This document shows, piece after piece, positions 1,894-24,236 of a stretch of DNA of 42,528 nt. Source of the DNA: Burkholderiales bacterium (lineage in GTDB: Bacteria; Pseudomonadota; Gammaproteobacteria; Burkholderiales; SG8-39); assembly GCA_014860355.1 (NCBI GenBank), contig JACZJV010000060.1, positions 1-42,528 on the forward strand, read 5' to 3'. The notes under the pieces are model-generated. The model made no database searches. It saw nothing but the letters and a program-made list of their open reading frames with translations, and was not told the origin of the DNA. The position numbers and the translations under genes are program-made. The first letter of the stretch is position 1; each line of letters starts with the position of its first letter.

Positions 1894-2457
1894 TTATGCG
1901 GGCAGCTTGGCAGCAGCGCGCGCCTGTATGCCGAGGCGATAGCCTTCGGCGAGGGCATCCATATTCAGATCAAGAAAGCTTTTCGGCGACTCCGCGCGCA
2001 CGACTTGTTCGAGCGCCTTGCGCTCGCAGATTTCGGACATTTCGCAGAGTGCTCCCAGCGCCACGATGTTGGTCACGCGTTCGCTGCCGAGTTCGATCGC
2101 GCTACGACTGAGCGGCAGGCGGTAGACGCGGCAATCGCCCTCGGGCAGATCGGGACACATGCGCGTGTCTGCGATCACCAGCGAGCCGCACCTGAGCAGC
2201 GGCCACGACGGATTCACCGCCATACGGTCCAGGAGCACCAGGCAGTCCAGCGCCGTGGCGAGCGGGTAATCGACTTCGCGATCGCAGATCACCAGGTCGG
2301 AATTGCAGTAGCCGCCGCGCGAGGTCGGTTCGTAGGTCTGCGACTGCGCCACGCGCCTGCCCGCTGCGCAAAGCGCATCGGCGAGCATTTTGGCGCACAG
2401 GATCAAGCCCTGGCCGCCGGTGCCGCCGATTCGAATCTCGACTCTGGCATCTCGCAT
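1894..2457 (-). CDS. 2-oxoacid:acceptor oxidoreductase, gamma subunit (split complex; candidate phenylglyoxylate oxidoreductase)
   Basis: This 187-residue protein is a stand-alone POR-gamma domain. The N-terminal GGTGGQG (residues 11-17), followed by a CAKMLADAL helix, is the typical nucleotide-like loop of the family. It is the last gene of a five-gene minus-strand operon. Its ATG (2457) overlaps the TGA of the beta gene in a TGATG junction, so translation is probably coupled. Together with the alpha and beta genes upstream it makes a KorABC-like thiamin-diphosphate enzyme that oxidatively decarboxylates a 2-oxoacid to its CoA thioester and passes electrons to ferredoxin. The substrate is inferred from context: phenylglyoxylate, because padBCD is nearby and padEFGHI is absent. 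2-Oxoglutarate or a branched-chain oxoacid remain possible. Confidence 0.85.
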   Translation of the reverse strand: MRDARVEIRIGGTGGQGLILCAKMLADALCAAGRRVAQSQTYEPTSRGGYCNSDLVICDREVDYPLATALDCLVLLDRMAVNPSWPLLRCGSLVIADTRMCPDLPEGDCRVYRLPLSRSAIELGSERVTNIVALGALCEMSEICERKALEQVVRAESPKSFLDLNMDALAEGYRLGIQARAAAKLPA

Positions 2458-3341
2458 CAGAACTCTCCCTTGCCAGTTCGTGCGCCGTCTTTCGCCGCGG
2501 CGTCGGCGCGCTGCGCGGCAGCGGCCTTGCGGTAGGCAGCGCCGTACTCGGGCCGGTCTCGCTTGGAGAGCACGCCGGTGGGGAGATCGTTCGAGCGGAA
2601 TGGCGTGTTCACCGTGTCGCGATATGCGCTGGGTCGCAGCTCGCTTTTCTGCCGCAGCACCATCTCGGCCGAAGAGCCCAGCTCGTTCTTGCGTCCGAAG
2701 ATTTCGGTGCAGTCCGACAGCACTTCGACAAAGGCGAAGCCCGGATGCGCCAGCCCTGCGCGTATGAGTTCCTTCAGTTTGGGCACGTGATGGGTGACTT
2801 CGCGGCCGACAAAGCTCGCGCCCGCCGCTGCGGCCAGCGCGCAGGCGTCGAAATTCGGCTCCGAATTTCCCAGCGGCGTGGTGGTCGTGAGCCGTGTCTC
2901 CGAGGTCGTCGGCGACACCTGACCCCCGGTCATGCCGTAGACCTCGTTGTTGAGCATGAGGCAGGTGAGCTTCAGATTGCGCCGGCAGGCGTGGATCAGA
3001 TGGTTGCCGCCGATCGCGAGACAGTCTCCATCGCCGGTGATCACTACCACGTGCAGGTCGGGCCGCGCGAGCGCGAGTCCCGTGGCGTAGGCGAGCGGCC
3101 GGCCGTGGGTCACATGAAAGGTATTGGCATCGATGTAGGCCGACAGCCGCCCGGCGCAGCCGATGCCGGAGACCACCGCGAGTTTGTCCTTGTCCATGCC
3201 CAGTTCGTGGACGGCCCAGAGCAGCGCACGCAGCGCGATGCCGTGGCCGCAGCCGGGGCAGAGGAAATGCGGCATCATTTCCTTGCGCAGATAATCGCGC
3301 ACGTCGAATTCGGCCGCCGAGTCTACGATGGTGCTGCTCAT
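2457..3341 (-). CDS. 2-oxoacid:acceptor oxidoreductase, beta (thiamin-diphosphate-binding) subunit
   Basis: The 294-residue protein carries the thiamin-diphosphate motif: GDGD at 103-106 and NNEVYGMTGG at 131-140. It also has cluster cysteines in a CPGC motif (C28, C31) and C62, as in KorB/PorB beta subunits. It binds the cofactor at the alpha/beta interface and probably one [4Fe-4S] cluster. Its ATG overlaps the TGA of the alpha gene by four bases (ATGA at 3338-3341), and its own stop overlaps the gamma start. A second, distinct beta subunit (KorB, 36534-37370) occurs in this window, so the two are not redundant in architecture. Substrate preference cannot be read from the sequence alone. 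Confidence 0.9.
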   Translation of the reverse strand: MSSTIVDSAAEFDVRDYLRKEMMPHFLCPGCGHGIALRALLWAVHELGMDKDKLAVVSGIGCAGRLSAYIDANTFHVTHGRPLAYATGLALARPDLHVVVITGDGDCLAIGGNHLIHACRRNLKLTCLMLNNEVYGMTGGQVSPTTSETRLTTTTPLGNSEPNFDACALAAAAGASFVGREVTHHVPKLKELIRAGLAHPGFAFVEVLSDCTEIFGRKNELGSSAEMVLRQKSELRPSAYRDTVNTPFRSNDLPTGVLSKRDRPEYGAAYRKAAAAQRADAAAKDGARTGKGEF

Positions 3342-4510
3342 ATTGCCGTCTCCTGGGCGAGCGCCTGGGCGCGCGCGGCGATGTCCGCCGGCGTGATGGG
3401 CTCGCCGTCATAGCGATGCATGGCGTACACGCGCTTGCCGCCGAGTATGCGCTGCACTTCCAGCTCGAGCTGGCCTGCATTCATTTCCGGCACCAGCACG
3501 GCGCGCGCTGTCTTTGCCGCCGCGCGCAAGGCGGTCTCAGGGAACGGCCACAGAGTGACCGGCCGGAACAGGCCCAGGCGCACGCCCTTTGCGCGGGCGG
3601 TTGCGAGCGCGCGTGTCGCGGCGCGGGCGCTGATGCCGATGGCGACGATCAGCACGTCGGCATCGTCGCAGTCCAGCGCCTGCCACGAGTCGATGACATC
3701 GCGGTGGCGCTCGAACTTGGTGAGCAGCCGGCCTAGGTTGCGCGCGACCGCCTCCGGGTTCTGCGTGGGGAAACCGCTTTCGGAATGCGTCAGCCCCGTG
3801 GTGTGCACGCGATAGCCGCCACCGGGGCGCGACATGGCCGGAATCCCGTCTTCGTTCGCCGCATACGGCTGGTAGGCCTCGCGCGGCCCGCTGGCCCATT
3901 TGCGTTCGGCGCGCGCGTCGTCCCCGATGTCGGGAAATTCGACTGTTTCGGTCAGCTGCGCGATCACCTGGTCGTAGAGCAGCACTACCGGCGTGCGGAA
4001 GGTCTCCGCAAGATCGAATGCGCGTACGGTCTCGGTATAGATTTCGCGCACCGAAGCCGGTGCGAGCACAATCATGGGGTAGTCGCCGTGGCTGCCCCAG
4101 CGCGTCTGCATGATGTCGGACTGCGACGGGCGCGTCGGCATGCCGGTGGAAGGGCCGCCGCGCATGACGTTGACGATCACGCAGGGGACTTCGGCGCCGG
4201 CGGCGTAGCCGATGTTTTCCTGCTTCAGCGAGAAGCCCGGCCCGCTGGTGGCGGTCAGCGCCTTGACCCCGCCCATCGAGGCGCCGATGACCGCGGCGAT
4301 CGAGGCGATTTCGTCTTCCATCTGCACGAACACCCCGCCCACCTGGGGCAGGAGGCGCGACAGGCGCTCCGCGATTTCCGATGAAGGCGTAATCGGATAG
4401 CCGGCGAAGAAGCGGCAGCCGGCCGCGACCGCGCCGAGCGCGCAGGCGTGGTTGCCCGAGACCAGGCGCAGCGCGGCGCCCGGCGCAGGCAGTTTGTCGA
4501 CGGCGTTCAT
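3338..4510 (-). CDS. 2-oxoacid:acceptor oxidoreductase, alpha subunit (no gamma fusion)
   Basis: The 390-residue protein contains YPITPSSE (38-45), the pyrimidine/substrate pocket motif of this family, and RGGPSTGMPT (117-126), the usual CoA-oxoacid region. The start is ATG 4510, overlapping the TGA of the iorB fusion gene (ATGA); upstream in-frame codons only read through iorB. Unlike KorA at 34792-36537, it lacks an N-terminal gamma domain, which is encoded separately at 1894-2457. No separate delta ferredoxin gene lies in the operon: the KorD-like domain is found at the C-terminus of the preceding IorB. PadG of the Aromatoleum phenylglyoxylate dehydrogenase is a plausible functional counterpart, but the FAD subunit PadH is missing here. 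Confidence 0.9.
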   Translation of the reverse strand: MNAVDKLPAPGAALRLVSGNHACALGAVAAGCRFFAGYPITPSSEIAERLSRLLPQVGGVFVQMEDEIASIAAVIGASMGGVKALTATSGPGFSLKQENIGYAAGAEVPCVIVNVMRGGPSTGMPTRPSQSDIMQTRWGSHGDYPMIVLAPASVREIYTETVRAFDLAETFRTPVVLLYDQVIAQLTETVEFPDIGDDARAERKWASGPREAYQPYAANEDGIPAMSRPGGGYRVHTTGLTHSESGFPTQNPEAVARNLGRLLTKFERHRDVIDSWQALDCDDADVLIVAIGISARAATRALATARAKGVRLGLFRPVTLWPFPETALRAAAKTARAVLVPEMNAGQLELEVQRILGGKRVYAMHRYDGEPITPADIAARAQALAQETAI

Positions 4511-5463
4511 GCCGGTGCTCCCCGCGCGGCCACGCGGTCCAGGTGCACGCGTATGGCAAAGTCCGGACACAGGAGTTCGCACAGGCGGCAGCCGGTGCAT
4601 TTATCCGGCTGCGCCAGTTCGACGATGCGCTCCGCATTCAGCCGCAGGCAGCGCTCGGGGCAGAGCTTTACGCAAATGTCGCAGCTCTTGCACCATTCCT
4701 GCGTGATCTCCAGCCGCACGCTGTAGGGCGATTCTGCCGGCACGGGAATACGCGTGGCCGGCGCCTCGGCTTCGATGACCCTGGTTCGCGCTTCCGCGAT
4801 CCAGCTGCGCCCGAGGCGGAAAGCGTCGAGGTTGACCGCGATGGTTTTCTTCGGCACGAACTGCGCCAGCGACTTTTCCCAGTCTTCGGCGGGGAAATCG
4901 AGCGCCGTGGACAGGGCGCCGATCAGGACCACGTTTGCGGCGCGCTCGTTGCCCAGTTCCTCGGCCATGCGCGTGGCGTCGATCGCATAGGCTTGCGCGA
5001 CATGCTCCCTGACTTCGGCCGGGGTTTCGCGCGAGTAGCGCAGCGGCGCGCCCGGGCGCCGGTTCAGACAGGCAAACGGCGGCACGATGCGCTTGGTGTC
5101 GCAGATAAAGATGCCGCTGTCCGGTTTGAGGTAGGCGAGCCAGCGCAGGCCCTCGGCCCACTCGAGCGCGACCAGGATGTCGGCTTCGCCCTTGGGGATG
5201 GTCGGAGACCATACCTGGGGGCCGAAGCGCACGTGGCTGAACACGGTGCCGCCGCGCTTGGCCATGCCGTGCACTTCGCTTTGCTTGACTTCGAAACCCT
5301 TGGACTGCGCCAGGGACGCCAGGGCCTTGGACACCATGATCACGCCCTGGCCGCCCACGCCCACGATGAGCACATTCATCGGCTCGCGGGCCTTGGCCGC
5401 CGCCGCGGTGGGCCGCAGTTCCTCGCTTACGGCGCTGCTGTTCGATGCGTTCGGGCGGCTCAT
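4507..5463 (-). CDS. iorB: Fusion of indolepyruvate oxidoreductase beta subunit (IorB) with a KorD-like 2x[4Fe-4S] ferredoxin domain
   Basis: The 318-residue product has a disordered N-terminus (1-28) and an IorB/POR-gamma domain starting MNVLIVGVGGQG at 29-40 and running to about 228. A Pro/Ala linker follows, and then a bacterial-type ferredoxin domain. Two perfect cluster motifs are visible: C258, C261, C264, C268 followed by Pro, and C289, C292, C295, C299 followed by Pro. The second ends CPDFAI, as in KorD/VorD delta subunits. Ordinary IorB is about 190-230 residues with no ferredoxin. Start ATG 5463 overlaps the iorA stop; the stop overlaps the next alpha start. The domain could serve IorA, the downstream alpha/beta/gamma complex, or both. 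The base run was read directly; absence of a sequencing frameshift is assumed. Confidence 0.9.
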   Translation of the reverse strand: MSRPNASNSSAVSEELRPTAAAAKAREPMNVLIVGVGGQGVIMVSKALASLAQSKGFEVKQSEVHGMAKRGGTVFSHVRFGPQVWSPTIPKGEADILVALEWAEGLRWLAYLKPDSGIFICDTKRIVPPFACLNRRPGAPLRYSRETPAEVREHVAQAYAIDATRMAEELGNERAANVVLIGALSTALDFPAEDWEKSLAQFVPKKTIAVNLDAFRLGRSWIAEARTRVIEAEAPATRIPVPAESPYSVRLEITQEWCKSCDICVKLCPERCLRLNAERIVELAQPDKCTGCRLCELLCPDFAIRVHLDRVAARGAPA

Positions 5464-7280
5464 TGTGTCACCGCCGCCGCAGGTCTTATGCAATCCACCG
5501 TGCACACCTGCGCGCACAGGGTGCAGCCGATACAGAGCGACTGATCGATTTTCACCTTGTGCCGGCCCTCGAAGGTATCCTCGCCCCAGGTCATGGCGGG
5601 GCAGCCGAGGTTCATGCACGACTGGCAGGCGTTGCACTGCGCGTTCACGATGGCGAGCGCGGGCCCCTTGATCTTGACCGGGTCGAGCACGCAGGGGCGG
5701 TTGGAGATGATCACCGATACGCCGCGGTGCGCGATCCCCTCGCGCAGCGTCTGGTACATCTGCGCCAGGTCGTAGGAATCCACGGTGCGCACCCATTTCA
5801 CGCCGATGGCGCGCACCAGCGCTTCGTAATCCACCTTCGGCGCGTCCTCGCCGCGCAGCGTCTTGCCCGTGCCCGGATGCTCCTGGCCGCCGGTCATCGC
5901 CGTGATGTGGTTGTCGAGCAGCAGCACGGTGATGTTCGCCTGGTTGTAGACCGCGTCGATCAAGCCGGGGATGCCGGCGTGCAGGAAGGTCGAATCGCCG
6001 ATGGTGGCCATCACCGGTTTGGTATCGCCGGCCTTGGACATGCCGATCGCGTTGCCGATCGACGAACCCATCGATACCGTGGTGTCCAGCCCGCGCAGCG
6101 GATCCAGGCAGGCCAGGGTGTAGCAGCCGATGTCACCGGCCACGCGCGCACCCGATGCCCTGACCGCCATGAAACTCGAGGTGTGCGGGCAGCCCGCGCA
6201 CAGCACCGGCGGGCGCACCAGCGGTTCGAGCGCCCAGCCGCCCGGCTTTGCGCGCGGTTCCAGCACGCCCGCCTGCTCGAAGCCGGCGCGCACCAATTCG
6301 GGCGAGAATTCGCCCATGCGCGGGAAAAACTGCTTGCCTTCGGCCTTGATGCCCAAGGCGCGCAGTTCCTTTTCGATCACCGGCTCCAGTTCCTCGACGA
6401 CGAACACGCGCCCGACCGACTCGCAATAGCGCCGCAGCAGGCCTTCGGGCAGGGGCCAGGAGGCGCCGAGCTTGAGCACGCTCGCGTTGGGCAGCACCTC
6501 GCGCACATAGGGATAGCAGGTACCGGCGGTGATCACGCCGAAACTCGCGTCGCCGGTTTCCCAGCGGTTGATCGTCGCAGTCTCCAGATAGTCCTTCAAT
6601 TTCGCCTCGCGCTCGAGCACCACCGCGTGGCGCCGCCGCGCATGCGCCGGAATCATCACGTTCTTCGCCGGATTCTCGATGAACGCTCGCTGCGGGACTT
6701 CCTTGCGCGGGCCTATGGCAACCGGGCTGCGCGTGTGCGACAGCCGCGTCGTGCCGCGCACGATGACCATGGTGTCGAACTGCTCCGAAATGTCGAACGC
6801 GAGCCGCGTATAGTCGAGCGCCTCCTGCGCGTCGCTGGGTTCGAGCACCGGTACCGTGGCCAGCTGGGCGTACAGGCGCGTGTCCTGCTCGTTCTGCGAG
6901 CTGTGGATGCCCGGATCGTCGCAAATCGCGAGAACCAGCCCGCCGTTGACCCCGATATAGGACTGGGACATGAACGCGTCGGCGGCAACGTTGAGCCCGA
7001 CGTGCTTCATCGAGGCCAGTGCCCGGCTGCCGGCAAAGGCCGCACCCATGGCCACATCGAGTGCGACCTTTTCGTTGGTCGACCATTGCGCGTGCAGGTC
7101 CTCGGCCGGGAATTCGGCGAGGGATTCCATGATCTCGGTGCTGGGTGTGCCCGGATAGGCGGCGGCGACGCGCACGCCGGCTTCCCACGCGCCGCGCGCG
7201 ATCGCCTCGTTTCCGGTGAGGGGTTTGACTTCCTGCTTCGGGTTTTGCGACTGTTCCACAGTCTCGGTCACTGCGTGCAT
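5460..7280 (-). CDS. iorA: Indolepyruvate (arylpyruvate):ferredoxin oxidoreductase, alpha subunit
   Basis: IorA oxidatively decarboxylates indolepyruvate or phenylpyruvate with CoA to the arylacetyl-CoA and reduces ferredoxin. The 606-residue length is normal for the family. The N-terminal pyrimidine domain has AYPGTPSTE, the middle has the thiamin-diphosphate region GDSTFLHAGI and LLLDNHITAMTGGQ, and the C-terminus has two cluster motifs (C549, C552, C555, C560 followed by Pro; C583, C586, C589, C593). In the second the usual Pro after the last Cys is Thr. ATG 7280 has GGGAGGA upstream. It heads the five-gene operon, behind an FNR-like box and a palindrome. In this window it would feed phenylacetyl-CoA from phenylalanine into PadBCD while supplying low-potential electrons for ring reduction. 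Confidence 0.94.
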   Translation of the reverse strand: MHAVTETVEQSQNPKQEVKPLTGNEAIARGAWEAGVRVAAAYPGTPSTEIMESLAEFPAEDLHAQWSTNEKVALDVAMGAAFAGSRALASMKHVGLNVAADAFMSQSYIGVNGGLVLAICDDPGIHSSQNEQDTRLYAQLATVPVLEPSDAQEALDYTRLAFDISEQFDTMVIVRGTTRLSHTRSPVAIGPRKEVPQRAFIENPAKNVMIPAHARRRHAVVLEREAKLKDYLETATINRWETGDASFGVITAGTCYPYVREVLPNASVLKLGASWPLPEGLLRRYCESVGRVFVVEELEPVIEKELRALGIKAEGKQFFPRMGEFSPELVRAGFEQAGVLEPRAKPGGWALEPLVRPPVLCAGCPHTSSFMAVRASGARVAGDIGCYTLACLDPLRGLDTTVSMGSSIGNAIGMSKAGDTKPVMATIGDSTFLHAGIPGLIDAVYNQANITVLLLDNHITAMTGGQEHPGTGKTLRGEDAPKVDYEALVRAIGVKWVRTVDSYDLAQMYQTLREGIAHRGVSVIISNRPCVLDPVKIKGPALAIVNAQCNACQSCMNLGCPAMTWGEDTFEGRHKVKIDQSLCIGCTLCAQVCTVDCIRPAAAVTQ

Positions 7281-7427: not shown

Positions 7428-7874
7428 CTAGGCCGCGGCAACGGTGCTTGCGAGCGCAAGCGCGCGGCGCTGGCGCTCGATCAGCTTGAGCATGGTGTCG
7501 ACGGTGATCGAACGGAAGGTGGCCTTGGCGATTTCATCGATCTCCGCCATTACCGCCCCCAGGGCGCGGCCGACCTCGCTCGATTCGTCGAACTCGTCGC
7601 TCTCACCGGTACGCGTGCTGATGTCCTCGAACAACTCGATTACGTCCATCAGCGTGAGCCGCTTGGCGTTGCCGCTGAAGCGGTAGCCGCCGCCGACGCC
7701 GCGCGCCGATTCGACCAGGCCGGCGCGCCCCAGCTCGCGCAGGACTTTGGCCAGGTGGTGGGTGGAGGCGCCGTATTTTTCGGCTATCTCGGCCGCCGAC
7801 AGCTGCCGCCCCGGATTGGCCGCGAATTCGAGCACGCTGTAGAGCGCCAGGCTGGTGCTTTTTTGAAGTTTCAT
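7428..7874 (-). CDS. Rrf2-family transcriptional regulator without cysteines (BadM-like)
   Basis: The 148-residue protein opens with the Rrf2 winged-helix (MKLQKSTSLALYSVLEFAAN, then LSAAEIAEKYGASTHHLAKVLREL and the wing GVGGGYRF). It contains no cysteine at all, so it cannot hold the Fe-S cluster used by IscR and NsrR. Within Rrf2, BadM of Rhodopseudomonas palustris controls benzoyl-CoA reductase genes and responds to small molecules. The downstream position of this gene next to a GNAT gene (19 bases between stop and start), the neighbouring ior operon and the benzoyl-CoA cluster make a BadM-like role likely. The long acidic segment SDEFDESSEVGRAL replaces the cysteine loop. Its targets are unknown; the palindrome at 7323-7335 is one candidate. 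Confidence 0.85.
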   Translation of the reverse strand: MKLQKSTSLALYSVLEFAANPGRQLSAAEIAEKYGASTHHLAKVLRELGRAGLVESARGVGGGYRFSGNAKRLTLMDVIELFEDISTRTGESDEFDESSEVGRALGAVMAEIDEIAKATFRSITVDTMLKLIERQRRALALASTVAAA

Positions 7875-8453: not shown

Positions 8454-8584
8454 TCGGTTTCAAGGCATGCCAGGGTGCTGACCCTGTGCCGATAGAACTG
8501 AGTGCGGCCGCGCCGAAGGTGTTGCAACCAAGAAGAACCGGGCAGGCAGGCGGTGGCGCTTCCAACCAAACTTGAGGAGGTATG

Positions 8585-9751
8585 ATGAAATCCACGCGGG
8601 CAAAAGACAGTTTCAAGCGCGGCCTGGTTGCAGTCGCCGCGGCCTTCACCCTGATGGCCGGCACGGCCATCGCGGCCGAGCCGATCAAGATCGGTTCCTT
8701 CCTGTCGGTGACGGGCGGCGCGGCGTTCCTGGGCGATCCGGAGCAGAAAACGCTGGAACTCTACGTCGAGAAGATCAATGCGGGCGGCGGCGTGCTCGGC
8801 AGAAAGCTGGAGCTGGTCGCCTACGACTCGGCCGGCGACGCGGAAAAGGCGCGCACGTTCGTCAAGCGCCTGATCGAGCAGGACAAGGTCGACGTCATCG
8901 TCGGCGGATCCACCACCGGCGAAACCATGGCCGTGGTGCCCCTGGTTGAAGCTGCGCAGGTTCCGTTCATCTCCCTTGCGGGCGCGGTGGTCATCGTCGA
9001 GCCGGTGAAGAAATGGGTGTTCAAGACGCCGCATACCGACCGCATGGCCTGCGAGAAGATTTTCATCGACATGCAGTCGCGCAAGCTCTCCAAGATTGCG
9101 CTGATTTCCGGTCCCGGCGGCTTCGACAAGTCGATGCGCGGCCAGTGCCTGGGCGTGGCGAAAAAATACGGCGTGGACGTGATCGCAGACGAGACTTACG
9201 GCAAGGGCGATACCGACATGACGGCCCAGCTCACCAAGATCAAGAATACGGCCGGGGTGCAGGCCGTGCTCAATGCGGGCTTCGGAGAGGGGCCGGCGAT
9301 CGTGACCAAGAACTACCGCCAGATCGGCATCAGCGTGCCGCTGTACCAGTCGCACGGCGTCGCGTCCAAGGAGTTCATCAAGCTCGCAGGCGCGGCAGCC
9401 GAAGGCGTGCGCCTGCCGGCCGCTGCCTTGCTGGTCGCTGAATCCTTGCCTGCAAGCGACCCGCAGCGCCCGGTCGTGGTGGCCTACAAGAAAGAGTACG
9501 AGTCGCGCTTCAAATCGGAAGTATCGACCTTCGGCGGGCACGCCTACGATGGCCTGTATCTGGTGGTCGAAGCGATGAAAAAGGCGGGCGGCACCGACAA
9601 GGCCAAGGTGCGCGATGCGCTTGAAGGCGTGCGCGGTTTCATGGGCACGGCGGGCGTGTTCAATATGTCCGCCGGCGACCACATGGGCCTCGACCTGAGC
9701 GCCTTCCGCATGCTCGAAGTCAAGGGCGGCGACTGGACCCTAGTCAAGTAG
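8585..9751 (+). CDS. livK: Branched-chain-amino-acid-type ABC transporter, periplasmic substrate-binding protein
   Basis: A signal peptide (KRGLVAVAAAFTLMAGTAIA, cleavage before AEP) is followed by a type I periplasmic-binding fold beginning IKIGSFLSVTGGAAFLG, typical of LivK-like proteins; 388 residues is normal. Two adjacent ATGs follow GAGGAGGT; the second (8585) has better spacing and is chosen. It is the first gene of a livKHMGF set read toward padB. Such importers are common in aromatic-degradation clusters, and sequence cannot tell amino acids from aromatic acids. Phenylalanine, phenylacetate or benzoate are the contextual guesses. The FNR-like box upstream suggests expression without oxygen. 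Confidence 0.88.
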   Translation: MKSTRAKDSFKRGLVAVAAAFTLMAGTAIAAEPIKIGSFLSVTGGAAFLGDPEQKTLELYVEKINAGGGVLGRKLELVAYDSAGDAEKARTFVKRLIEQDKVDVIVGGSTTGETMAVVPLVEAAQVPFISLAGAVVIVEPVKKWVFKTPHTDRMACEKIFIDMQSRKLSKIALISGPGGFDKSMRGQCLGVAKKYGVDVIADETYGKGDTDMTAQLTKIKNTAGVQAVLNAGFGEGPAIVTKNYRQIGISVPLYQSHGVASKEFIKLAGAAAEGVRLPAAALLVAESLPASDPQRPVVVAYKKEYESRFKSEVSTFGGHAYDGLYLVVEAMKKAGGTDKAKVRDALEGVRGFMGTAGVFNMSAGDHMGLDLSAFRMLEVKGGDWTLVK

Positions 9752-9787
9752 GCCTTACCCGGTGCTGATGGGGGAGGCGGACGCGGC

Positions 9788-10663
9788 ATGAGCGCGCAGT
9801 TCATGCAGTATCTGCTCACCGGTCTTACGGTGGGCGCGATCTACGCACTGGTCGCGCTCGGCTTCTCCATCATTTTCAATGCCAGCCACGTGATCAACTT
9901 CGCCCAGGGCGAATTCGTCATGATAGGTGGCATGACAACCGTAACGCTCACCGCGGCGGGCTTGCCCTATCTGCTGGCGATCCCTCTGGCGATCGCGGCG
10001 GCGGCGCTGGTGGGACTGGCGCTGGAAAAGTTCGCGGTCGAACCGGCGCGCGGCGCTTCGGTGATCACGCTGATCATCATCACCATAGGCGCGTCGATAT
10101 TCCTGCGCGGTCTGGCGATGGTGATCTGGGACAAGCGGTTTCACGCGCTCAAGCCGTTCACGGGCGATACGCCCATAGCGATCGGGGGCGCCACCGTCCT
10201 GCCGCAAAGCCTGTGGGTGATCGGGGTCACGCTCGCGATCGTGCTGGCGCTGTCCTGGTTCTTCGGCCGTACCCTGCTGGGGAAGGCGATGCTCGCCACT
10301 TCCCACAACCGCCTAGCCGCACAGCTAGTGGGCATCAACGTGCGCATGGTGCTGTTTCTTTCGTTCGGCCTCTCGGCGGCCTTGGGTGCGGTTGCCGGCA
10401 TCCTGATCGCGCCGATCACGACCACCTCCTACGACGTGGGTGTGATGCTGGGCCTGAAGGGCTTCGCCTCCGCGATCCTGGGCGGCCTGGGCAGCGGTGT
10501 CGGGGCGGTGGTCGGCGGACTGGTGCTCGGCATCGCCGAGACCATGAGCGCCGGCTATATTTCCTCGGCCTACAAGGATGCGATCGCCTTTGTAATCATT
10601 CTTGCGGTGCTGTTTTTCATGCCGAGCGGACTGTTCGGCAAGCGCGGCAGCGAGCGCGTCTAG
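9788..10663 (+). CDS. livH: ABC transporter permease, LivH type
   Basis: This 291-residue integral membrane protein begins MSAQFMQYLLTGLTVGAIYALVALGF. It carries the conserved NFAQGEFVMIGG segment after the second membrane helix and the GLKGFASAILGGLGS coupling region near the end. About eight hydrophobic segments are visible. It forms the inner-membrane channel with LivM. A ribosome site (GGGGAGG) lies upstream, 36 bases after livK. Confidence 0.92.
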   Translation: MSAQFMQYLLTGLTVGAIYALVALGFSIIFNASHVINFAQGEFVMIGGMTTVTLTAAGLPYLLAIPLAIAAAALVGLALEKFAVEPARGASVITLIIITIGASIFLRGLAMVIWDKRFHALKPFTGDTPIAIGGATVLPQSLWVIGVTLAIVLALSWFFGRTLLGKAMLATSHNRLAAQLVGINVRMVLFLSFGLSAALGAVAGILIAPITTTSYDVGVMLGLKGFASAILGGLGSGVGAVVGGLVLGIAETMSAGYISSAYKDAIAFVIILAVLFFMPSGLFGKRGSERV

Positions 10664-10667
10664 CACG

Positions 10668-11641
10668 ATGCTCTCGCGTCTCGCCGCGCCGCGCACCGGA
10701 GGCATGCTCGCGCTTGCCGTTGTGATCGCGCTGTTGCCGCTGGTCTTGAGCAACAAGTATTTTTACGATATTGCGGTTCTTGTAGGGCTGAACGCCATCG
10801 TCTGCGTCGGCCTGAACCTGCTCATCGGCTACGCCGGACAGATCAGCCTCGGCCATGCCGGCTTCTTTGGCGCGGGCGCCTACGGATCGGCCATACTCGC
10901 ATCGCGCTACGGCTGGCCGCCGCTTGCGGCGATGCTCGCAACCACGCTCGCAGTCGCCGCGCTCGCCTTCCTCGTCGGGCGGCCCATCCTGCGCCTGAAA
11001 GGCCACTATCTCGCCATGGCCACGCTGGGCCTGGGGATCATCATTTTCATGGTCATCACCACCGAGGACAGATTTACCGGCGGTCCGGACGGGATCTCGG
11101 TGGTGCCGCTCAGCATCGGCGGCTTTGTGCTGCAGGGCGAACGCCTCTGGTACTGGGTCGTCGGCGCGCTGCTGCTCCTCGCGGTGTGGCTCGCGCTGAA
11201 CCTGATCGAGTCCCCGGCGGGGCGGGCGCTGCGCGCGCTGCATAGTTCCGAGGTCGGCGCCGAGGTGGTCGGGATCAATGCCGCCGAGCACAAGCTGATG
11301 GTGTTCGTGATCTCGGCCGTGTTCGCTTCCATCGCCGGCAGCCTGGCCGCGCACTACTCCGGTTTCGTTACGCCGGGCAAGGCTGCATTCCTGCATTCGA
11401 TCGAACTGGTTACCATGGTGGTTTTCGGCGGCATGGCCTCGACTTTCGGCGCGGTGGTCGGGGCGGCAGTGCTGACCACCCTGCCGCAGTTGCTGACGGT
11501 GTTCGAGGACTACGAAATGATGGTGTTCGGCGCGGTGATGATGGGCACCATGATCTTCCTGCCGCGCGGCGTGGTGCCCAGCGTTGCGCGGCTGTTCCGG
11601 GCACGCCGCAGGGAACCGGCTGACCACGCGGAGACAAGACG

Positions 11642-11645
<4 letters not shown>
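10668..11645 (+). CDS. livM: ABC transporter permease, LivM type
   Basis: The 325-residue protein starts at ATG 10668, four bases after the livH stop; the upstream in-frame extension lies inside livH. It shows the LivM signature GLNLLIGYAGQISLGHAGFFGAGAYG (read here in pieces), then LKGHYLAMATLGLG and the EVGAEVVGINAAEHKLMVF coupling loop. Up to ten membrane spans are predicted by eye. It pairs with LivH as the second transmembrane subunit. Confidence 0.92.
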
Positions 11646-12465
<820 letters not shown>

Positions 12466-12469
<4 letters not shown>

Positions 12470-13170
12470 TGCTCGAAGTCGAGGGACTGGACAGCCACTA
12501 CGGGCGCATACCGGCGCTGCGGGGCATAGACCTGCACGTGGGCGAGGGCGAACTGGTGGCGCTGGTGGGAGCCAACGGCGCGGGCAAGACGACGCTGCTG
12601 CGCGCGCTCTCGGGCGTGCAGCCGGTCAGCGCCGGGCGGGTGCGCTTCGAGGGCGCCGACATCACCGCCGCCGCTGCCGACAGGCGCGTGCAGCTCGGCA
12701 TCGTGCAGGTGCCGGAGGGGCGGCAGGTGTTCGGGCCGCTGTCGGTCGAGGACAACCTGCGCCTGGGCGCGTACCTGCGCAGCAGGGCGGAAGCCGCGCT
12801 GGGAATCGAGCGGGTGTACGCGATGTTCCCGGCGCTCAAGCAAAAGCGCAGGGAGCCTGCAGGGACGCTATCGGGAGGCCAGCAGCAGATGCTCGCCATG
12901 GGCAGGGGCCTGATGGCCCTGCCCAAGCTGCTGCTGCTCGATGAGCCGAGCATGGGACTCGCACCCAAACTGGTGGAAGAGATCTTCGCCTGCGTGCGTG
13001 CGCTGAAGACGGCCTCGACCACAATATTCCTGGTCGACCAGAATGCGCGTGCGGCCCTGGCCGTCGCCGACCGTGCCTACGTGCTCGAGACCGGCCGGGT
13101 GGTGCTCTCCGGCAGCGGTGCCGAACTGCTCGAAGACGAACAGGTGAAGGAGGCCTACCTTGGGCTTTAG
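12466..13170 (+). CDS. livF: ABC transporter ATP-binding protein, LivF type
   Basis: This 234-residue ATPase shows Walker A GANGAGKTT, the GIVQVPEGRQVFGPLSVEDNL motif characteristic of LivF, the signature LSGGQQQMLAMGRGLM, Walker B LLLLDEPSMGLAP and the switch residue region IFLVDQNARAALA. Here the usual EQN glutamate of the H-loop motif is an aspartate (DQN). The start overlaps the livG stop (ATGA). It is the last gene of the importer operon and converges with the Lrp gene. Confidence 0.93.
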
Positions 13171-13250: not shown

Positions 13251-13730
13251 TCAGGCCAGGTGGCTCAAGGGCAGCGCCGTGGTGTCCTTCACACGCTCCA
13301 GCGCAAAGCTGGATTTCACTTCGGTGATGCCCGGATGCTTGAGCAGCGAATTCATGACAAAGCGCGAGTAATGCTCCAGGTCCTCCACATGCACCCGCAG
13401 CAGATAGTCGAGGTCGCCGGTCATGGAATAGCAGGCCACCACCTCCTGCCAGTTCTGCACCGCGCGCGCGAATGCCTTGACCGCGCCTTCCCCGCGCTTT
13501 TCGAGCTTCACCGAAACATAGGCGAGCAGACCGAGGCCGACCTTGAGCGAATCGATCAGCGCGACGTACTGGCGGATCACGCCGCTTTCCTCCAGGCGCT
13601 TGAGGCGGCGCAGGCAGGGCGAAGGCGAAAGTGCGACGCGTTCGGCGAGTTCGAGATTGCTCAGCCGCCCTTCTTTTTGCAGGATCTCGAGGATTTTCCG
13701 GTCCGTCCGGTCCAGCCGAAAATCTGGCAT
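13251..13730 (-). CDS. Lrp/AsnC-family transcriptional regulator
   Basis: The 159-residue protein has an AsnC-type HTH (LDRTDRKILEILQKEGRLSN, then LAERVALSPSPCLRRLKRLE) and a C-terminal RAM ligand domain (YVSVKLEKR, CYSMTGDLDYLLRVHVEDLE, ITEVKSSFALERVK). ATG 13730 has GAGGA at good spacing; a GTG twelve bases earlier is the alternative. Lrp members usually sense amino acids and control their uptake or breakdown. Placed between an amino-acid-type importer and the phenylacetyl-CoA genes, it could sense phenylalanine or another aromatic amino acid, but that is inference. A TATAAT lies on its strand about 30 bases upstream of the start. It is divergent from padB and shares that spacer. Confidence 0.9.
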   Translation of the reverse strand: MPDFRLDRTDRKILEILQKEGRLSNLELAERVALSPSPCLRRLKRLEESGVIRQYVALIDSLKVGLGLLAYVSVKLEKRGEGAVKAFARAVQNWQEVVACYSMTGDLDYLLRVHVEDLEHYSRFVMNSLLKHPGITEVKSSFALERVKDTTALPLSHLA

Positions 13731-13795
13731 TAAAATCCTCACATAGTCTGGCTCTGCGAAATTATATGCTAATCATGCCCGATAATAGGACGAAT

Positions 13796-13916: not shown

Positions 13917-13985
13917 ATGCATTCAAGCCTGACCATAGGACTATGCGGGATCGGGGCCGCGGCGCGCAAGGCGGTGCCGCGATGA
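13917..13985 (+). CDS. 22-codon leader peptide overlapping padB
   Basis: ATG 13917 has a strong AGGAG ribosome site (13904-13908, spacing 8). It opens a frame of 22 codons, product MHSSLTIGLCGIGAAARKAV plus PR. Its TGA (13983-13985) overlaps the padB ATG (13982-13984) in an ATGA junction. padB itself has only a weak AAGG upstream, so its translation probably depends on ribosomes finishing this peptide. It could also be a misread N-terminus of padB, but the frames differ. No clear attenuator codon run is present. Confidence 0.5.
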   Translation: MHSSLTIGLCGIGAAARKAVPR

Positions 13986-16729
13986 ACGCGCCGGAGAAAA
14001 CCGCGGCGCTCGCGAAATCGGGCAAGCGCGCCACCTACTGCTACCAGTGCGTGGCCGGCCCGGACCTGCTGACGGTGAAAATCGTCGACGGTGTGGCCAC
14101 CGAGGTGGAGCCCAACTTCGCCGCATGCAGCGTGCATCCGGGCGGCGGCAAGGTGTGCGTAAAGGCCTACGGCCTGGTGCAGAAGACCTACAACCCGAAT
14201 CGCGTGCTCTCGCCGATGCGCCGTACCAACCCGAAGAAAGGGAGAAACGAAGATCCCGGCTTTGTCCCGATTTCCTGGGACGAAGCGCTCGATACCATTG
14301 CAGCCAAATTGCGTTCGATCATGCAGGCCGGCTTGCTGGACGAGTCCGGCTATCCCAAGGTCGCGGCGAATTTCGGCGGCGGCGGCACCCCGCAGTCCTA
14401 CATGGGCACCTTCCCCGCATTTCTCGCCGCCTGGGGTCCGGTAGACATGGGCTTCGGCTCGGGGCAGGGGGTGAAATGCACCCACTCCGAGCACTTGTAC
14501 GGCGAATTCTGGCACCGCGCTTTCACGGTCTGCCCCGATACGCCGATGTGCAATTACGTGATTTCCTGCGGCGCCAATGTGGAAGCCTCGGGCGGCGTGG
14601 TCGGCGTGTGGCGCCATGCCAACGCGCGCGAACGCGGCATGAAACGGGTGCAGGTCGAACCGCATTTGTCGGTCACCGGCGCCTGCTCGGCCGAATGGGT
14701 GCCGATCCGGCCCAAGACCGATCCCGCTTTTCTCTACGCGCTGGTGCACGTGCTGCTGCACGAGGCCGCGCGCGAAAGGCTGGACCTTCCGTTCCTGAAG
14801 GCGCATACGAATTCGCCCTATCTGGTCGGCGCGAATGGATTTTTCCTGCGCGATGCGGCCACGCGCAAGCCCTTGCTCTGGGATTTGAAGCGCAAGGCCG
14901 CAGTGGCTTTCGACACGCCCGGCTGCGATCCGGCGTTAGAAGGTACGTTTTCCTGCGATGCGGTGGAAATAGGCCCCGACGCCGAAGTTCTGGCGCAGGG
15001 CAGGCTCGAAGGCAGTCCGTCCTTCGCCAAACTGCTGGCGCACGTGCAGCCGTACTCGCCCGAGTGGGCGGCGGGCATCTGCGATGTGCCGGCAGCGACC
15101 ATGCGCCGCATCGCCAACGAATTTCTCGATCACGCGCAGGTCGGTGCGACCATCGAAATCGAGGGCAAGACCATGCCTTACCGTCCGGTGTCCGTCGCCC
15201 TGGGCAAGACGGTGAACAACGGCTGGGGCGGCTTCGAATGCGTATGGGCGCGCACCCTGCTCGCCGTCCTGGTGGGCGGCCTGGAAGTCCCCGGGGGCAC
15301 CCTGGGCACTACGGTCCGGCTCAACCGCCCGCTGGCGGAAAGGCTGGAGAGCGTGACGCCGGGGCCGGACGGCTTCATGCACTATCCGATGAATCCCACC
15401 GACCGCGAGAACTGGAGTCCGCGCCCGAATATACGCAACGCTTACCGCAGCATGGTGCCGCTGGCTGCCAACGGCCCGTGGAGCCAGGCGCTGGGACCCA
15501 CGCATTTTTCCTGGATGTTCCTCAAGGAAACCCCCAAGGGCCTGCCGACGGTGACCCTGCCCGAGGTATGGTTCGTGTACCGCACCAATCCGGCGATCTC
15601 GTTCTGGGACACCAAGGACGTGTCGGCGACCATGGCGCGCTTTCCTTTCGTGGTCGCGATGGCCTATACCCGCGACGAAACCAACCACATGGCGGACATC
15701 CTGCTGCCGGACGCGACCGACCTGGAGAGCCTGCAGCTGATACGCATCGGCGGCTCCAAGTATATCGAGCAGTTCTGGGAGCACGAGGGCTACGCCTTGC
15801 GCCAGCCGGTGGTGGAGGCCCAGGGCGAAGCGCGCGATTTCACAGATATCGCCACCGAACTCGCGCGCCGCACCGGTCTGCTGGAGAAGTACAACGCCTC
15901 GATCAACCACGGTTCGGCCGGTGTGCCGCTGAAGGGCGAGAACTGGGACTTTTCTCTGGAAACCGGGAGCGTGCACGGCCGCGACGCGATCTGGAACGCC
16001 GTGTGCAAGGCGGCTAGCGCCGAATTGACCGGCGGCAAGGAAGTGCACGACCTCGCCTGGTGGAAGGAGAACGGGCTGGCCACCAAACCGTTTCCGCATA
16101 CGGACTGGTATCTATTCCCCACCCTGGTGGAGCAGGGCCTGCGATTCGAGCTGCCGTATCAGGAGCGCCTTTACCGCATCGGCAAGGAACTGGGCAATCG
16201 GCTGCACGAAAATGACATGCAATGGTGGGACGAGCAACTCGCCGAGTATCAGACGCTGCCGGTGTGGAAGGATTTCCCCGGCCTGTGGGAAAAGTCCCTG
16301 CTGAGGATGGGCGGCAAGACCGCGGATTTTCCGTTCTGGCTGCTTACCTCGCGCAGCATGCAGTATTCCTGGGGCAACAACGTCGGCATCCAGCTGATCA
16401 AGGAAGTCGCCGACAATATTGCCGGCCATCGCGGCGTGATCGTCAACGCCGGCACCGCCGCCGAACTGGGCGTGGAAGATGGCGACACCGTCGAGATCGC
16501 GACGCCGCTGCACAGCGTGACTGCCCGGGCGGTGGTGCGCCAGGGCATACGGCCGGACACCCTGCTGCTGATCGGACAGTTCAGCCACTGGGTGACGCCC
16601 TTCGCCAAGGATTTCGGCGTGCCCAGCATGAATTCGCTGGTACCGATGTCGATGGCGCTGACCGATGCCACCGGTTCGGGGGCGGACGTCGTGCGTGTCA
16701 GCCTGAAACGCACAGGAGGTGAAAAATGA
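13982..16729 (+). CDS. padB: Phenylacetyl-CoA:acceptor oxidoreductase, molybdopterin catalytic subunit
   Basis: The 915-residue protein belongs to the DMSO-reductase family. An N-terminal Fe-S region (C20, C23, C49 or nearby, C59) is followed by the molybdopterin domains (FGGGGTPQSYMGTF; VISCGANVEASGG; TRDETNHMADILLPDATDLE). The C-terminal dinucleotide-binding domain begins near FWLLTSRSMQYSWGNN. In Thauera and Azoarcus PadBCD oxidises phenylacetyl-CoA to phenylglyoxylate and delivers electrons to quinone at the membrane. No Tat signal precedes the cluster cysteines, which fits the cytoplasmic-facing Pad enzyme. ATG 13982 is chosen because it overlaps the leader-peptide stop; ATG 13943 would add 13 residues with a poorly spaced site. 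The stop overlaps padC. Another molybdenum oxidoreductase is less likely given padCD, paaK and the bcr genes. Confidence 0.87.
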   Translation: MNAPEKTAALAKSGKRATYCYQCVAGPDLLTVKIVDGVATEVEPNFAACSVHPGGGKVCVKAYGLVQKTYNPNRVLSPMRRTNPKKGRNEDPGFVPISWDEALDTIAAKLRSIMQAGLLDESGYPKVAANFGGGGTPQSYMGTFPAFLAAWGPVDMGFGSGQGVKCTHSEHLYGEFWHRAFTVCPDTPMCNYVISCGANVEASGGVVGVWRHANARERGMKRVQVEPHLSVTGACSAEWVPIRPKTDPAFLYALVHVLLHEAARERLDLPFLKAHTNSPYLVGANGFFLRDAATRKPLLWDLKRKAAVAFDTPGCDPALEGTFSCDAVEIGPDAEVLAQGRLEGSPSFAKLLAHVQPYSPEWAAGICDVPAATMRRIANEFLDHAQVGATIEIEGKTMPYRPVSVALGKTVNNGWGGFECVWARTLLAVLVGGLEVPGGTLGTTVRLNRPLAERLESVTPGPDGFMHYPMNPTDRENWSPRPNIRNAYRSMVPLAANGPWSQALGPTHFSWMFLKETPKGLPTVTLPEVWFVYRTNPAISFWDTKDVSATMARFPFVVAMAYTRDETNHMADILLPDATDLESLQLIRIGGSKYIEQFWEHEGYALRQPVVEAQGEARDFTDIATELARRTGLLEKYNASINHGSAGVPLKGENWDFSLETGSVHGRDAIWNAVCKAASAELTGGKEVHDLAWWKENGLATKPFPHTDWYLFPTLVEQGLRFELPYQERLYRIGKELGNRLHENDMQWWDEQLAEYQTLPVWKDFPGLWEKSLLRMGGKTADFPFWLLTSRSMQYSWGNNVGIQLIKEVADNIAGHRGVIVNAGTAAELGVEDGDTVEIATPLHSVTARAVVRQGIRPDTLLLIGQFSHWVTPFAKDFGVPSMNSLVPMSMALTDATGSGADVVRVSLKRTGGEK

Positions 16730-17388
16730 CCCGCTGGGCGATGGTTGCCGATCTGCGCCGCTGCGTCGGCTGCCAGACCTGCACCGCCTCGTGCAGGCAG
16801 GCCAACGCGACGCCTCCCGGCGTGCAGTGGCGGCGCGTGCTCGACATGGAGGTGGGCGAATACCCGGCGGTGAAGCGCGCATTCGTGCCGGTGGGCTGCA
16901 TGCATTGCGACGATCCGCCGTGCATGCACGTGTGTCCGTCCACCGCCACCAAGAAGCGCGCTGACGGCATAGTCACCATCGACTACGACCTGTGCATAGG
17001 CTGCAGCTATTGTGCGGTCGCCTGCCCGTATCAGGCGCGCTACAAGACCGACCGCGCGAGCTTCGCCTACGGCAAGGCGACGGCGTCCGAGGAGCAGGGC
17101 TTCGACCCCAAGCGCCTGGCGGTGGCGACCAAGTGTACCTTCTGCGCAGACCGCATCGACGCCGGCCTGGCAAAAGGATTGAAGCCGGGCATCGATCCCG
17201 AGGCCACGCCTGCCTGCGTCAACAGCTGCATCACCCAGACGCTGAGCTTCGGCGACGTCGAGGATCCGCAAAGCAACGTGTCGCAACTGCTCGCCGAGAA
17301 TCAGACTTTCCGCATGCACGAAGAGCTGGGCACCGGTCCCGGGTTCTATTACATCTGGGACAAGAAAGTGGAGGAGACGCCATCATGA
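16726..17388 (+). CDS. padC: Phenylacetyl-CoA:acceptor oxidoreductase, four-cluster iron-sulfur subunit
   Basis: The 220-residue protein carries four [4Fe-4S] motifs in the order of DmsB-like subunits: C13, C16, C19, C23; C58, C61, C66, C70; C90, C93, C96, C100; and C137, C140, C164, C168. It relays electrons from the molybdenum centre of PadB to the membrane subunit PadD. The start overlaps the padB stop (ATGA) and the stop overlaps padD, so the three subunits are coupled. Confidence 0.92.
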   Translation: MTRWAMVADLRRCVGCQTCTASCRQANATPPGVQWRRVLDMEVGEYPAVKRAFVPVGCMHCDDPPCMHVCPSTATKKRADGIVTIDYDLCIGCSYCAVACPYQARYKTDRASFAYGKATASEEQGFDPKRLAVATKCTFCADRIDAGLAKGLKPGIDPEATPACVNSCITQTLSFGDVEDPQSNVSQLLAENQTFRMHEELGTGPGFYYIWDKKVEETPS

Positions 17389-20363: not shown

Positions 20364-20397
20364 ACCGGAACCGACCGATACGACACGAGGAACCCGC

Positions 20398-22841: not shown

Positions 22842-24236
22842 ATGGGGGTTCCTACCAAGAAAAGCCGTAGCGCGGCAGCCAAGAAACCGAACGCGTTGCG
22901 CAAGGTCGCGCCCAGGCGCGCTGCGACGGCCTATAAGTTCGACGCTGCAGCGGAAACCATGCCGCGCGCGGAAATCGCGAAACTGCAGCTGCGGCGGCTC
23001 AAGACGAGCGTCAAGAATGCCTACGACAATGTGCCCTTTCATCGCAGGCGCATGAAGGCGATCGGTTTCGAACCCGGCGACCTCAAGAGCCTGGACGACC
23101 TGGCCGGCCTTCCGTTCACGCTCAAGACCGACCTGCGCGATCACTATCCCTTCGGCCTGTTCGCGCGCGCGCGGACCGAAGTGGTGCGCTTGCACGCGTC
23201 CTCCGGGACCACCGGCAAACCGACCGTGGTCGGTTACACCGCGAAGGACATATCCACCTGGGCCGATTTGATGGCGCGTTCCATGGCATGCGCCGGCAGC
23301 CGGCCGGGCGATGTCATCCACAACGCCTACGGCTATGGCCTGTTCACCGGCGGCCTCGGCGCGCACTACGGTGCAGAGCGCCTGGGCGCGACCGTCGTGC
23401 CCATGTCCGGCGGCAGCACCGAGCGCCAGATCGTGTTGATCACCGACTTCGGCGCGCGCGTGCTGTGCGCGACACCGTCCTACGCCCTGGCGATCGCCGA
23501 GGTGGCGGAGAAGGAGGGCGTGGACCTGCGCAGATCCAGGCTCGAAATCGGCATATTCGGCGCCGAACCCTGGAGCGAGGCCATGCGGCGCGAGGTCGAG
23601 GCGCGCCTGGGGCTGAAAGCGGTCGACATCTACGGCCTGTCGGAAATCATGGGGCCGGGCGTCGCCTGCGAATGCGTGGAGGCCCAGGCGGGATTGCACG
23701 GCTGGGAAGACCATTTCCTGTTCGAAGTGATCGATCCGGACAGCGGCAAGGCGGTCAAGGAGGGCGAGGCGGGCGAACTGGTGATCAGCACGCTCACCAA
23801 GGAGGCGCTGCCGATGATCCGCTACCGCACCCGCGACATAACCCGCTTGAGCACCGAGCGTTGCGCCTGCGGCCGCACGCACGTTCGCATCAAGCGCATT
23901 ACCGGCCGCAACGACGACATGCTGATCATCCGCGGCGTGAATGTCTACCCGTCGCAGATCGAGGCGGTGCTGGTGGGTCTGCCCGACGTTGCGCCCCACT
24001 ATCAGCTGGTGGTGGAGAGAAAGGGCACTCTGGATCACCTGAGCGTGGAAGTGGAAATCATGCCCAACATCGTGCCTACGCCGGAACTGCGCAAGGTCGT
24101 CGGCGAAGCGGTGCGCCACCACATCAAATCGATCATCGGTGTCACTGCCGATGTGCTGGTGAAGGAGCCGGGCGAAATCCCGCGCTCCATGGGCAAGGCG
24201 GTCAGGGTGCGCGACCTGCGGCCGAAGCTGGCCTGA
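22842..24236 (+). CDS. paaK: Phenylacetate-CoA ligase (AMP-forming)
   Basis: The enzyme activates phenylacetate to phenylacetyl-CoA with ATP to AMP and pyrophosphate. The ATP-binding motif SSGTTGKP lies at 120-127. YGLSEIMGPG and IRYRTRDITRL follow, and the C-terminal domain has GRNDDMLIIRGVNVYPSQIE; all are typical of PaaK/PadJ. At 464 residues it is about 30 longer than the usual 430-440. The surplus is a Lys/Arg/Ala-rich N-terminus (KKSRSAAAKKPNALRKVAPR) before the normal start region. AGGAGG precedes ATG 22842, so the tail seems to be translated. It lies about 100 bases after the synthetase pair. A benzoate- or other aryl-CoA ligase is less likely given the PaaK-type motifs. Confidence 0.92.
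   Translation: MGVPTKKSRSAAAKKPNALRKVAPRRAATAYKFDAAAETMPRAEIAKLQLRRLKTSVKNAYDNVPFHRRRMKAIGFEPGDLKSLDDLAGLPFTLKTDLRDHYPFGLFARARTEVVRLHASSGTTGKPTVVGYTAKDISTWADLMARSMACAGSRPGDVIHNAYGYGLFTGGLGAHYGAERLGATVVPMSGGSTERQIVLITDFGARVLCATPSYALAIAEVAEKEGVDLRRSRLEIGIFGAEPWSEAMRREVEARLGLKAVDIYGLSEIMGPGVACECVEAQAGLHGWEDHFLFEVIDPDSGKAVKEGEAGELVISTLTKEALPMIRYRTRDITRLSTERCACGRTHVRIKRITGRNDDMLIIRGVNVYPSQIEAVLVGLPDVAPHYQLVVERKGTLDHLSVEVEIMPNIVPTPELRKVVGEAVRHHIKSIIGVTADVLVKEPGEIPRSMGKAVRVRDLRPKLA

Follow-up and report, generated by a model that had tools for sequence, protein, structure and literature searches.

In the window analyzed here, a 42,528-nucleotide stretch of contig JACZJV010000060.1 from a Burkholderiales bacterium (assembly GCA_014860355.1), iorB, the gene for the gamma subunit of an indolepyruvate oxidoreductase-type enzyme (IOR), is fused to a gene for a dicluster ferredoxin that resembles the delta subunit of 2-oxoacid oxidoreductases (KOR), and the fusion shares an operon with korABC. 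The iorB::ferredoxin fusion gene was confirmed to be real; in its product, a variable linker connects the IorB (gamma) domain to the dicluster ferredoxin domain. We consider it probable that the KOR delta subunit is hereby tethered to the IOR gamma subunit, which would give a linked arylpyruvate/2-oxoacid oxidoreductase with shared electrons. To our knowledge, 2-oxoacid:ferredoxin oxidoreductases (OFORs) are separate enzymes that meet only via the soluble ferredoxin pool.

The fusion gene and its conservation

The gene is one open frame on the minus strand, beginning with an ATG at 5463 and ending with a stop at 4507, and its 318-residue product carries a POR domain (PF01558, 1.1e-40) followed by Fer4-type Pfam matches at residues 253-305. 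A preliminary description of this DNA had reported an IorB domain and then two [4Fe-4S] motifs in one gene, and both were found intact (C258-x2-C261-x2-C264-x3-C268 and C289-x2-C292-x2-C295-x3-C299). Aligning the query with 45 diverse homologues (46 rows, after removal of loci whose gene was cut or ambiguous) showed no variation at any of the eight motif cysteines, and the fusion is retained there at identities down to 56-58%. In the homologue alignments the ferredoxin domain is near-invariant whereas the linker is poorly conserved, and the domain is therefore under selection. Between two conserved Trp motifs, the linker measures 31-47 residues (median 35) in 90 sequences.

The AlphaFold2 model of the fusion protein, made from 46 aligned sequences, has two folded domains, with a mean predicted local distance difference test (pLDDT) score of 79.7 and a predicted template modeling score of 0.68; the IorB domain is confident except at about residues 121-150, and confidence drops in the linker (Table 1). 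Its top Foldseek match was chain B of Helicobacter pylori OorDABC (8ys5_B, 3.9e-12). The second-best match in the PDB was the Moorella oxalate oxidoreductase chain 5c4i_E (5.9e-12 over 332 alignment columns, but with a root mean square deviation of 15.4), and Campylobacter OorC (3g2e_C, 1.2e-11) was also among the best.

The source genome (5.09 Mb, 99.17% complete) is fragmented into 202 contigs, which might arouse suspicion of an assembly or frameshift artefact. This is hardly conceivable, and we rejected it: the frame is stop-free in all 15 family genomes with a full-length match (14 besides the window's own) and intact in 91 of the 94 loci described below. The read-level frameshift that the preliminary description had named as a possible refutation is excluded by the same results.

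Within the family, the full-length fusion was present in 15 of 98 genomes, and a korA ortholog at a level of at least 75% in exactly the same 15. Downstream of the fusion, korA and korB were found at all 15 loci (window included) and korC at 13, the contigs of the remaining two ending in korB; without the window, the counts for korA, korB and korC are 14, 14 and 12. The fusion occurred in 1 of 300 genomes of an even order sample (the window's own only), with plain IorB in 11, and in 4 of 397 genomes of a phylum sample (own included), with plain IorB in 4; these counts are lower bounds, the first few candidates being scored per genome. Scanning one genome for each of 84,980 named species with the alignment gave 203 relatives, and the best 80 were fetched. 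Their titles are mostly those of Alpha-, Beta- and Gammaproteobacteria (some say only Proteobacteria or uncultured bacterium) and include Rhodopseudomonas, Bradyrhizobium, Afifella, Shimia, Emcibacter, Roseiarcus, Rhodospirillaceae, Ideonella and Ramlibacter.

The 14 family loci and these 80 named ones make up the 94 loci, several of which are the same genomes under two names. The eight-Cys ferredoxin is intact in 91, the exceptions being two genes cut by contig ends and one with an ambiguous base at a motif Cys. Every locus with at least 3 kb downstream (74/74) has korA, korB and korC in the same order, and no clear split version with separate iorB and ferredoxin genes was seen among the 94, which had been selected for similarity to the fusion. 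Plasmid records with a match numbered 17, none of them covering at least 80% of the fusion. The KorA match lies in two pieces in L102 (10933-12088) and L134 (1215-2358), as does the IorA match in L139 (968-2724), and each may reflect a frameshift, a gap or an assembly error.

As a control we used 20 unfused iorB loci, the plain matches of the family and order searches (E up to 5.6e-29); weaker matches, most of which lie within long single-chain frames, and the plain matches L188-L190 of the phylum sample fell outside this check. In none of the 20 did korABC stand beside iorB, with 19 of them informative since L176 ends about 100 bp after iorB; in L164 there is a weak (26%) KorA-like match about 3 kb upstream of iorA. 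The correlation that the preliminary description had suggested checking, of the C-terminal ferredoxin with a korABC lacking korD, is borne out by the 74 long-enough fused loci against the 20 unfused ones. The unfused IorBs are 192-219 amino acids long. A branch with support 91/58 separates every fused row of the IorB tree from the 24 unfused IorBs; the split sets 98 fused-clade rows against these 24, with L157 in addition, which we take to be a KorC-type outlier. In the KorA tree, which took 31 of 91 fused-clade rows, the alphas of eight unfused KorABC sets group apart (97/99).

Identity of the ferredoxin domain and the proposed IOR-KOR link

The description of the fused ferredoxin as KorD-type has held up. 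In the protein family scan, the domain matched the OorD model NF007205 at 1.9e-13 (50.3 bits, cut-off 93) and a 2-oxoglutarate ferredoxin oxidoreductase delta model at 6.8e-10, and chain D of 8ys5, the OorDABC of H. pylori, matched it as well (Table 1). When the whole genome was searched with the OorD model, the fused domain came first with 52.6 bits, itself below the 93-bit cut-off, and the next match reached 26.2 bits. Blastp against a tiny database gave 36-43% identity to stand-alone KorDs (about 1e-14 to 1e-15), as against 1e-7 to 1e-8 for other ferredoxin domains and only about 1e-4 for IorA's own C-terminal ferredoxin. The domain also has the position of oorD in oorDABC operons, directly before korA-korB-korC, and these alpha, beta and gamma genes have no delta gene of their own in the window operon, as had been noted earlier. 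By sequence resemblance, the fused domain is OorD/KorD (delta)-like, and on the strength of homology and position we read it as the probable delta subunit of KOR.

Could it be the delta unit of IOR itself, with KorABC a separate user of soluble ferredoxin that is merely co-transcribed? The order gamma-ferredoxin exists within a single enzyme in the c subunit (domains III-V) of the Moorella thermoacetica oxalate oxidoreductase (MtOOR), according to the accessible part of PMC5020499, and MtOOR was the second-best structural match of our model over 332 columns. However, we hold this to be unlikely, as IorA already bears an intact C-terminal dicluster ferredoxin, the fused domain is OorD-like and unlike that of IorA, and the fusion accompanies korABC in the examined loci whereas unfused iorB does not. 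Of 88 IorAs in the fused clade, 84 showed this ferredoxin motif; among the four others, two possess every cysteine but outside the compared slice, and the remaining two are truncated or stop early.

Under the explanation we favor, with KOR delta tethered to IOR gamma, the partner to which iorB is fused would be the delta gene (oorD/korD) belonging to a neighboring operon of the oorDABC type. An arylpyruvate would be converted to the arylacetyl-CoA by IorA together with the IorB domain, while the C-terminal ferredoxin domain would dock on KorAB as the delta subunit and exchange electrons with the [4Fe-4S] cluster of KorB. IOR and KOR would be tied to each other by a flexible linker, and electrons could pass between the two enzymes or exit through the shared ferredoxin domain. 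Because IorA keeps its own ferredoxin, the electron site of IOR is presumably served, leaving the extra domain free for KorAB. The docking, a stable complex, the sharing of electrons and the direction of their flow, and the substrates are what we infer from this arrangement. The preliminary description had proposed a possible common electron exit for both enzymes that feeds ferredoxin: the KorD-like domain tied to korABC agrees with it, but the complex, the common exit and the transfer to free ferredoxin, as opposed to transfer between the enzymes, are predictions, and IorA retains a ferredoxin of its own.

The same domain assignment would also fit a fusion that only sets stoichiometry or co-translation, with two independent enzymes and no shared electron flow. 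Each enzyme would in principle have its own clusters, and the overlapping genes already couple translation; but a covalent link holds the enzymes together whatever its origin, and the fusion is kept at 56-58% identity with no clear split in the similarity-selected loci, and we regard this possibility as unlikely.

Several points weigh against a linked complex. IOR can dispense with the fused domain as an exit, given the dicluster ferredoxin retained on IorA, and korABC does not strictly need a delta either, as there are OFORs that lack an internal ferredoxin domain and rely on free ferredoxin (PMC5020499, accessible part). A stand-alone korD, which the preliminary description had thought damaging to its proposal, was not found over the cut-off genome-wide by TIGR02179 (PorD/KorD), which gave 23 sub-threshold matches (best 45.4 bits); a few of these lie in small frames and the fused domain is not among them, making the model a poor probe, and a small ferredoxin from elsewhere in the genome could still serve KOR. 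Nor is the fusion the only setting in which korD is missing, because two of the unfused korABC loci (L154 and L156) have none upstream. The displayed IorB, OorA, OorB and OorD models all score under their curated cut-offs, and the support for the split between fused and unfused IorBs is modest. One of the two patterns of the named-species scan lies within the ferredoxin domain and the best-scoring 80 of 203 relatives were taken, so the uniformity of the fusion is partly selection. Finally, the IOR-KOR complex is itself a prediction.

Among the eight unfused korABC loci, five carry a separate korD gene immediately before korA. L154 lacks korD in the 1.8 kb that precede korABC and stops right behind korC. 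In L155 (27-4200) and L156 (5056-9371), the neighbor of KorABC is not KorD but a large protein ending in a ferredoxin domain, which we take to be GltD/PadH-like and which is a different electron exit from KorD.

A closed exchanger would be a special form of the linked enzyme, in which the electrons of IOR, and formally its CO2, pass through the tethered ferredoxin to a KOR running in reverse from succinyl-CoA to 2-oxoglutarate, or in which everything is reversed and phenylacetyl-CoA is assimilated. We think it quite unlikely. If it existed, phenylalanine and succinyl-CoA would, with a transaminase, give phenylacetyl-CoA and glutamate with no need for free ferredoxin, which could explain the operon in genomes with the oxygen-dependent PaaA route.

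Operon, surroundings and substrates

Table 1. Features of the iorAB-korABC operon, parts of the fusion protein and the adjoining regulator gene
Feature	Coordinates	Strand	Evidence
iorB::korD fusion, 318 aa	4507..5463	-	Open reading frame, Pfam, NCBIfam, family conservation
IorB (POR/gamma) domain, about residues 28-219	4807..5382	-	PF01558 at 37-219; best NCBIfam IorB models begin at residue 28
Variable linker, about residues 223-245	4729..4797	-	Weak conservation; pLDDT <50 at 232-242
OorD/KorD-like dicluster ferredoxin domain, about residues 246-307	4543..4728	-	NF007205 at 4546-4728, 52.6 bits (cut-off 93); 8ys5_D 5.7e-12
iorA, IOR alpha, 606 aa (POR_N, thiamine pyrophosphate (TPP) domain, C-terminal dicluster ferredoxin)	5460..7280	-	TIGR03336 696.1 bits (cut-off 650.9); Pfam
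korA, alpha subunit, OorA-like	3338..4510	-	NF006412 548.5 bits (cut-off 411); 1yd7_A 1.9e-100; 8ys5_A 1.2e-90
korB, beta subunit, OorB-like	2457..3341	-	NF007207 299.9 bits (cut-off 364); 8ys5_C 9.5e-75
korC, gamma subunit (scanned as 1894-2460)	1894..2457	-	PF01558 2.6e-27; NF006323 1.5e-31, under cut-off
Rrf2-family regulator, 148 bp upstream of iorA	7428..7874	-	PF02082 6.3e-25

The five genes overlap end to end in the order iorA, iorB::ferredoxin, korA, korB, korC, by ATGA at the first three junctions and by TGATG between korB and korC. The Rrf2-family protein possibly regulates the operon, and the genus loci L038-L043 and L045 likewise have such a gene upstream of iorA. The IorB part scores under the cut-offs of TIGR03334 (154.9 against 205.8 bits) and of its best model NF005322 (203.6 against 237), as it does for all IOR beta models among the best 25 of 56 families, and automatic annotation therefore probably names it poorly.

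The window also holds bcrCBAD, encoding benzoyl-CoA reductase, with the genes for 6-hydroxycyclohexenecarbonyl-CoA dehydrogenase and 6-oxocyclohexenecarbonyl-CoA hydratase, and a small ferredoxin-like protein at 26647-26889. A second OFOR (34792-37370), with a fused gamma-alpha chain and a beta subunit, adjoins the benzoyl-CoA reductase cluster, and korABC is therefore not the only 2-oxoacid:ferredoxin enzyme there. The large molybdopterin oxidoreductase and its iron-sulfur subunit at 13943-17388 are presumably PadB/PadC-like. From the translations we take 8582-13170 to encode an LIV-type transporter and 13251-13742 an Lrp-like regulator. A phenylacetate-CoA ligase-like protein at 22842-24236 scores just below its model cut-off. 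Two adjoining acyl-CoA synthetase-like genes (18270-22740), of which only the second has a Pfam ATP-grasp domain, are presumably both of the ADP-forming type. The label PF13607 is given to ADP-forming type acyl-CoA synthetases in the accessible part of PMC13285125.

KorA and KorB resemble 2-oxoglutarate enzymes in their NCBIfam and PDB matches, at scores below the Oor-specific cut-offs, and the best solved match of KorA is the alpha chain of a 2-keto acid:ferredoxin oxidoreductase (1yd7, 1.9e-100). The KorA sequence contains GYPITP, with the YPITP motif, and RGGPSTG, with the substrate-carboxylate Arg, both of which are common to OFORs generally and not specific for 2-oxoglutarate; their roles in the alpha subunit are described in the accessible part of PMC5020499. 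Judged by these resemblances, the substrate of KOR is most likely 2-oxoglutarate. For IorAB, family membership and the precedent of the Aromatoleum enzyme, which converts phenylpyruvate to phenylacetyl-CoA (PMC9765128, accessible part), suggest an arylpyruvate (indolepyruvate/phenylpyruvate) oxidoreductase. PaaK-like genes near the operon in 27 of the 94 loci and LivJ-like genes in 26 are consistent with a role in the metabolism of phenylacetyl-CoA.

What becomes of the product differs among genomes. BcrB was present in 11 of the 15 family fusion genomes (one under the cut-off) against 28 of the 83 others (Fisher p 0.008, kinship ignored), and PaaA over the cut-off in none of these 15, of which G309 has a weaker match. 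Yet the aerobic PaaA is present in 13 of 20 fusion genomes outside the family, which were chosen among the 80 named loci, and we rejected a tie to benzoyl-CoA reductase alone. The IOR-KOR pair is the one element that does not vary, so that a direct coupling of the two enzymes is a more attractive idea than a supply line dedicated to benzoyl-CoA reductase.

With respect to substrate, KorABC and the fused delta could instead be a phenylglyoxylate oxidoreductase replacing PadEFGHI, which is compatible with a linked complex: IOR would make phenylacetyl-CoA, PadBCD would carry it to phenylglyoxylate and KorABC on to benzoyl-CoA. Besides its benzoyl-CoA reductase genes, the window genome encodes a PadB-like protein, and PadG is absent from this 99% complete genome at E up to 1e-80; a PadB/PadC-like oxidoreductase without PadG leaves the step from phenylglyoxylate to benzoyl-CoA unexplained there. 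PadB-like matches occur in 54 of the 98 family genomes, namely in 14 of the 15 with the fusion against 40 of the 83 others, and PadB-like genes follow korC in L084 and L099. However, PadG exceeds its cut-off in 15 of the 98, including 6 of the 15 fusion genomes, KorA reaches 74.3 bits against the PadG cut-off of 700, a PadB-like match at E up to 1e-150 is missing in one fusion genome (G301), and the aerobic PaaA prevails in the chosen genomes outside the family as given above. Both this replacement and the route it implies are in our view very doubtful.

Comparison with known enzymes and significance

The IOR half of the operon resembles the IorAB enzymes: IorA passes the IOR_alpha model (Table 1), and the order iorA-iorB and the context of aromatic degradation are shared with known IorAB enzymes, such as that of Pyrococcus furiosus and the one that acts in phenylpyruvate oxidation in Aromatoleum (PMC9765128, accessible part). 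IorB models, however, span about 175-203 positions and have no ferredoxin part, whereas the IorB of the window bears an extra dicluster ferredoxin. The other half resembles H. pylori OorDABC (8ys5) in having an OorD-like ferredoxin, OorA-, OorB- and OorC-like subunits and the gene order D-A-B-C, the fused domain standing for D. It differs in that D shares one chain with another enzyme's gamma subunit and in its scores, which stay under the Oor-specific cut-offs (OorA 425.5 against 579 bits, OorB 299.9 against 364, OorD 50.3 against 93).

MtOOR (5c4i) likewise has a POR domain and then a dicluster ferredoxin in one chain, but there both belong to one enzyme, whereas here the gamma part is that of IOR and the ferredoxin most likely that of KOR; nor is the fused ferredoxin the only such domain here, as IorA bears its own. 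PadEFGHI is an OFOR of the same pathway context, from which the operon differs in a KorA far from PadG and in having no further PadH candidate among its five genes. HpdDEFG, the hydroxyphenylpyruvate:ferredoxin oxidoreductase of Clostridium scatologenes, also turns an arylpyruvate into an arylacetyl-CoA and has a separate ferredoxin subunit, but is a single four-subunit VOR-related enzyme, and a linked second OFOR is not described in the accessible part of the source (PMC13285125). In the open-licence literature we found no description of an IorB-ferredoxin fusion, an IOR-KOR complex or a gamma-to-delta fusion joining two OFORs. The earlier statement that no enzyme with this wiring has been described agrees with that literature but has to be narrowed: a gamma-ferredoxin fusion inside one OFOR is known from MtOOR, and it is the joining of the gamma subunit of one OFOR to what is probably the delta subunit of another that is apparently new.

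If the reading of a KOR delta subunit tethered to IOR gamma is right, the fusion would be a natural link between two OFORs, in which the electron subunit of one enzyme is part of another, kept across Alpha-, Beta- and Gammaproteobacteria. It would open a direct channel between the breakdown of aromatic amino acids and a central 2-oxoacid. It also makes two questions testable, namely where aromatic degraders such as the organism of the window obtain low-potential electrons, and how aerobic phenylacetate degraders run an arylpyruvate:ferredoxin enzyme at all.

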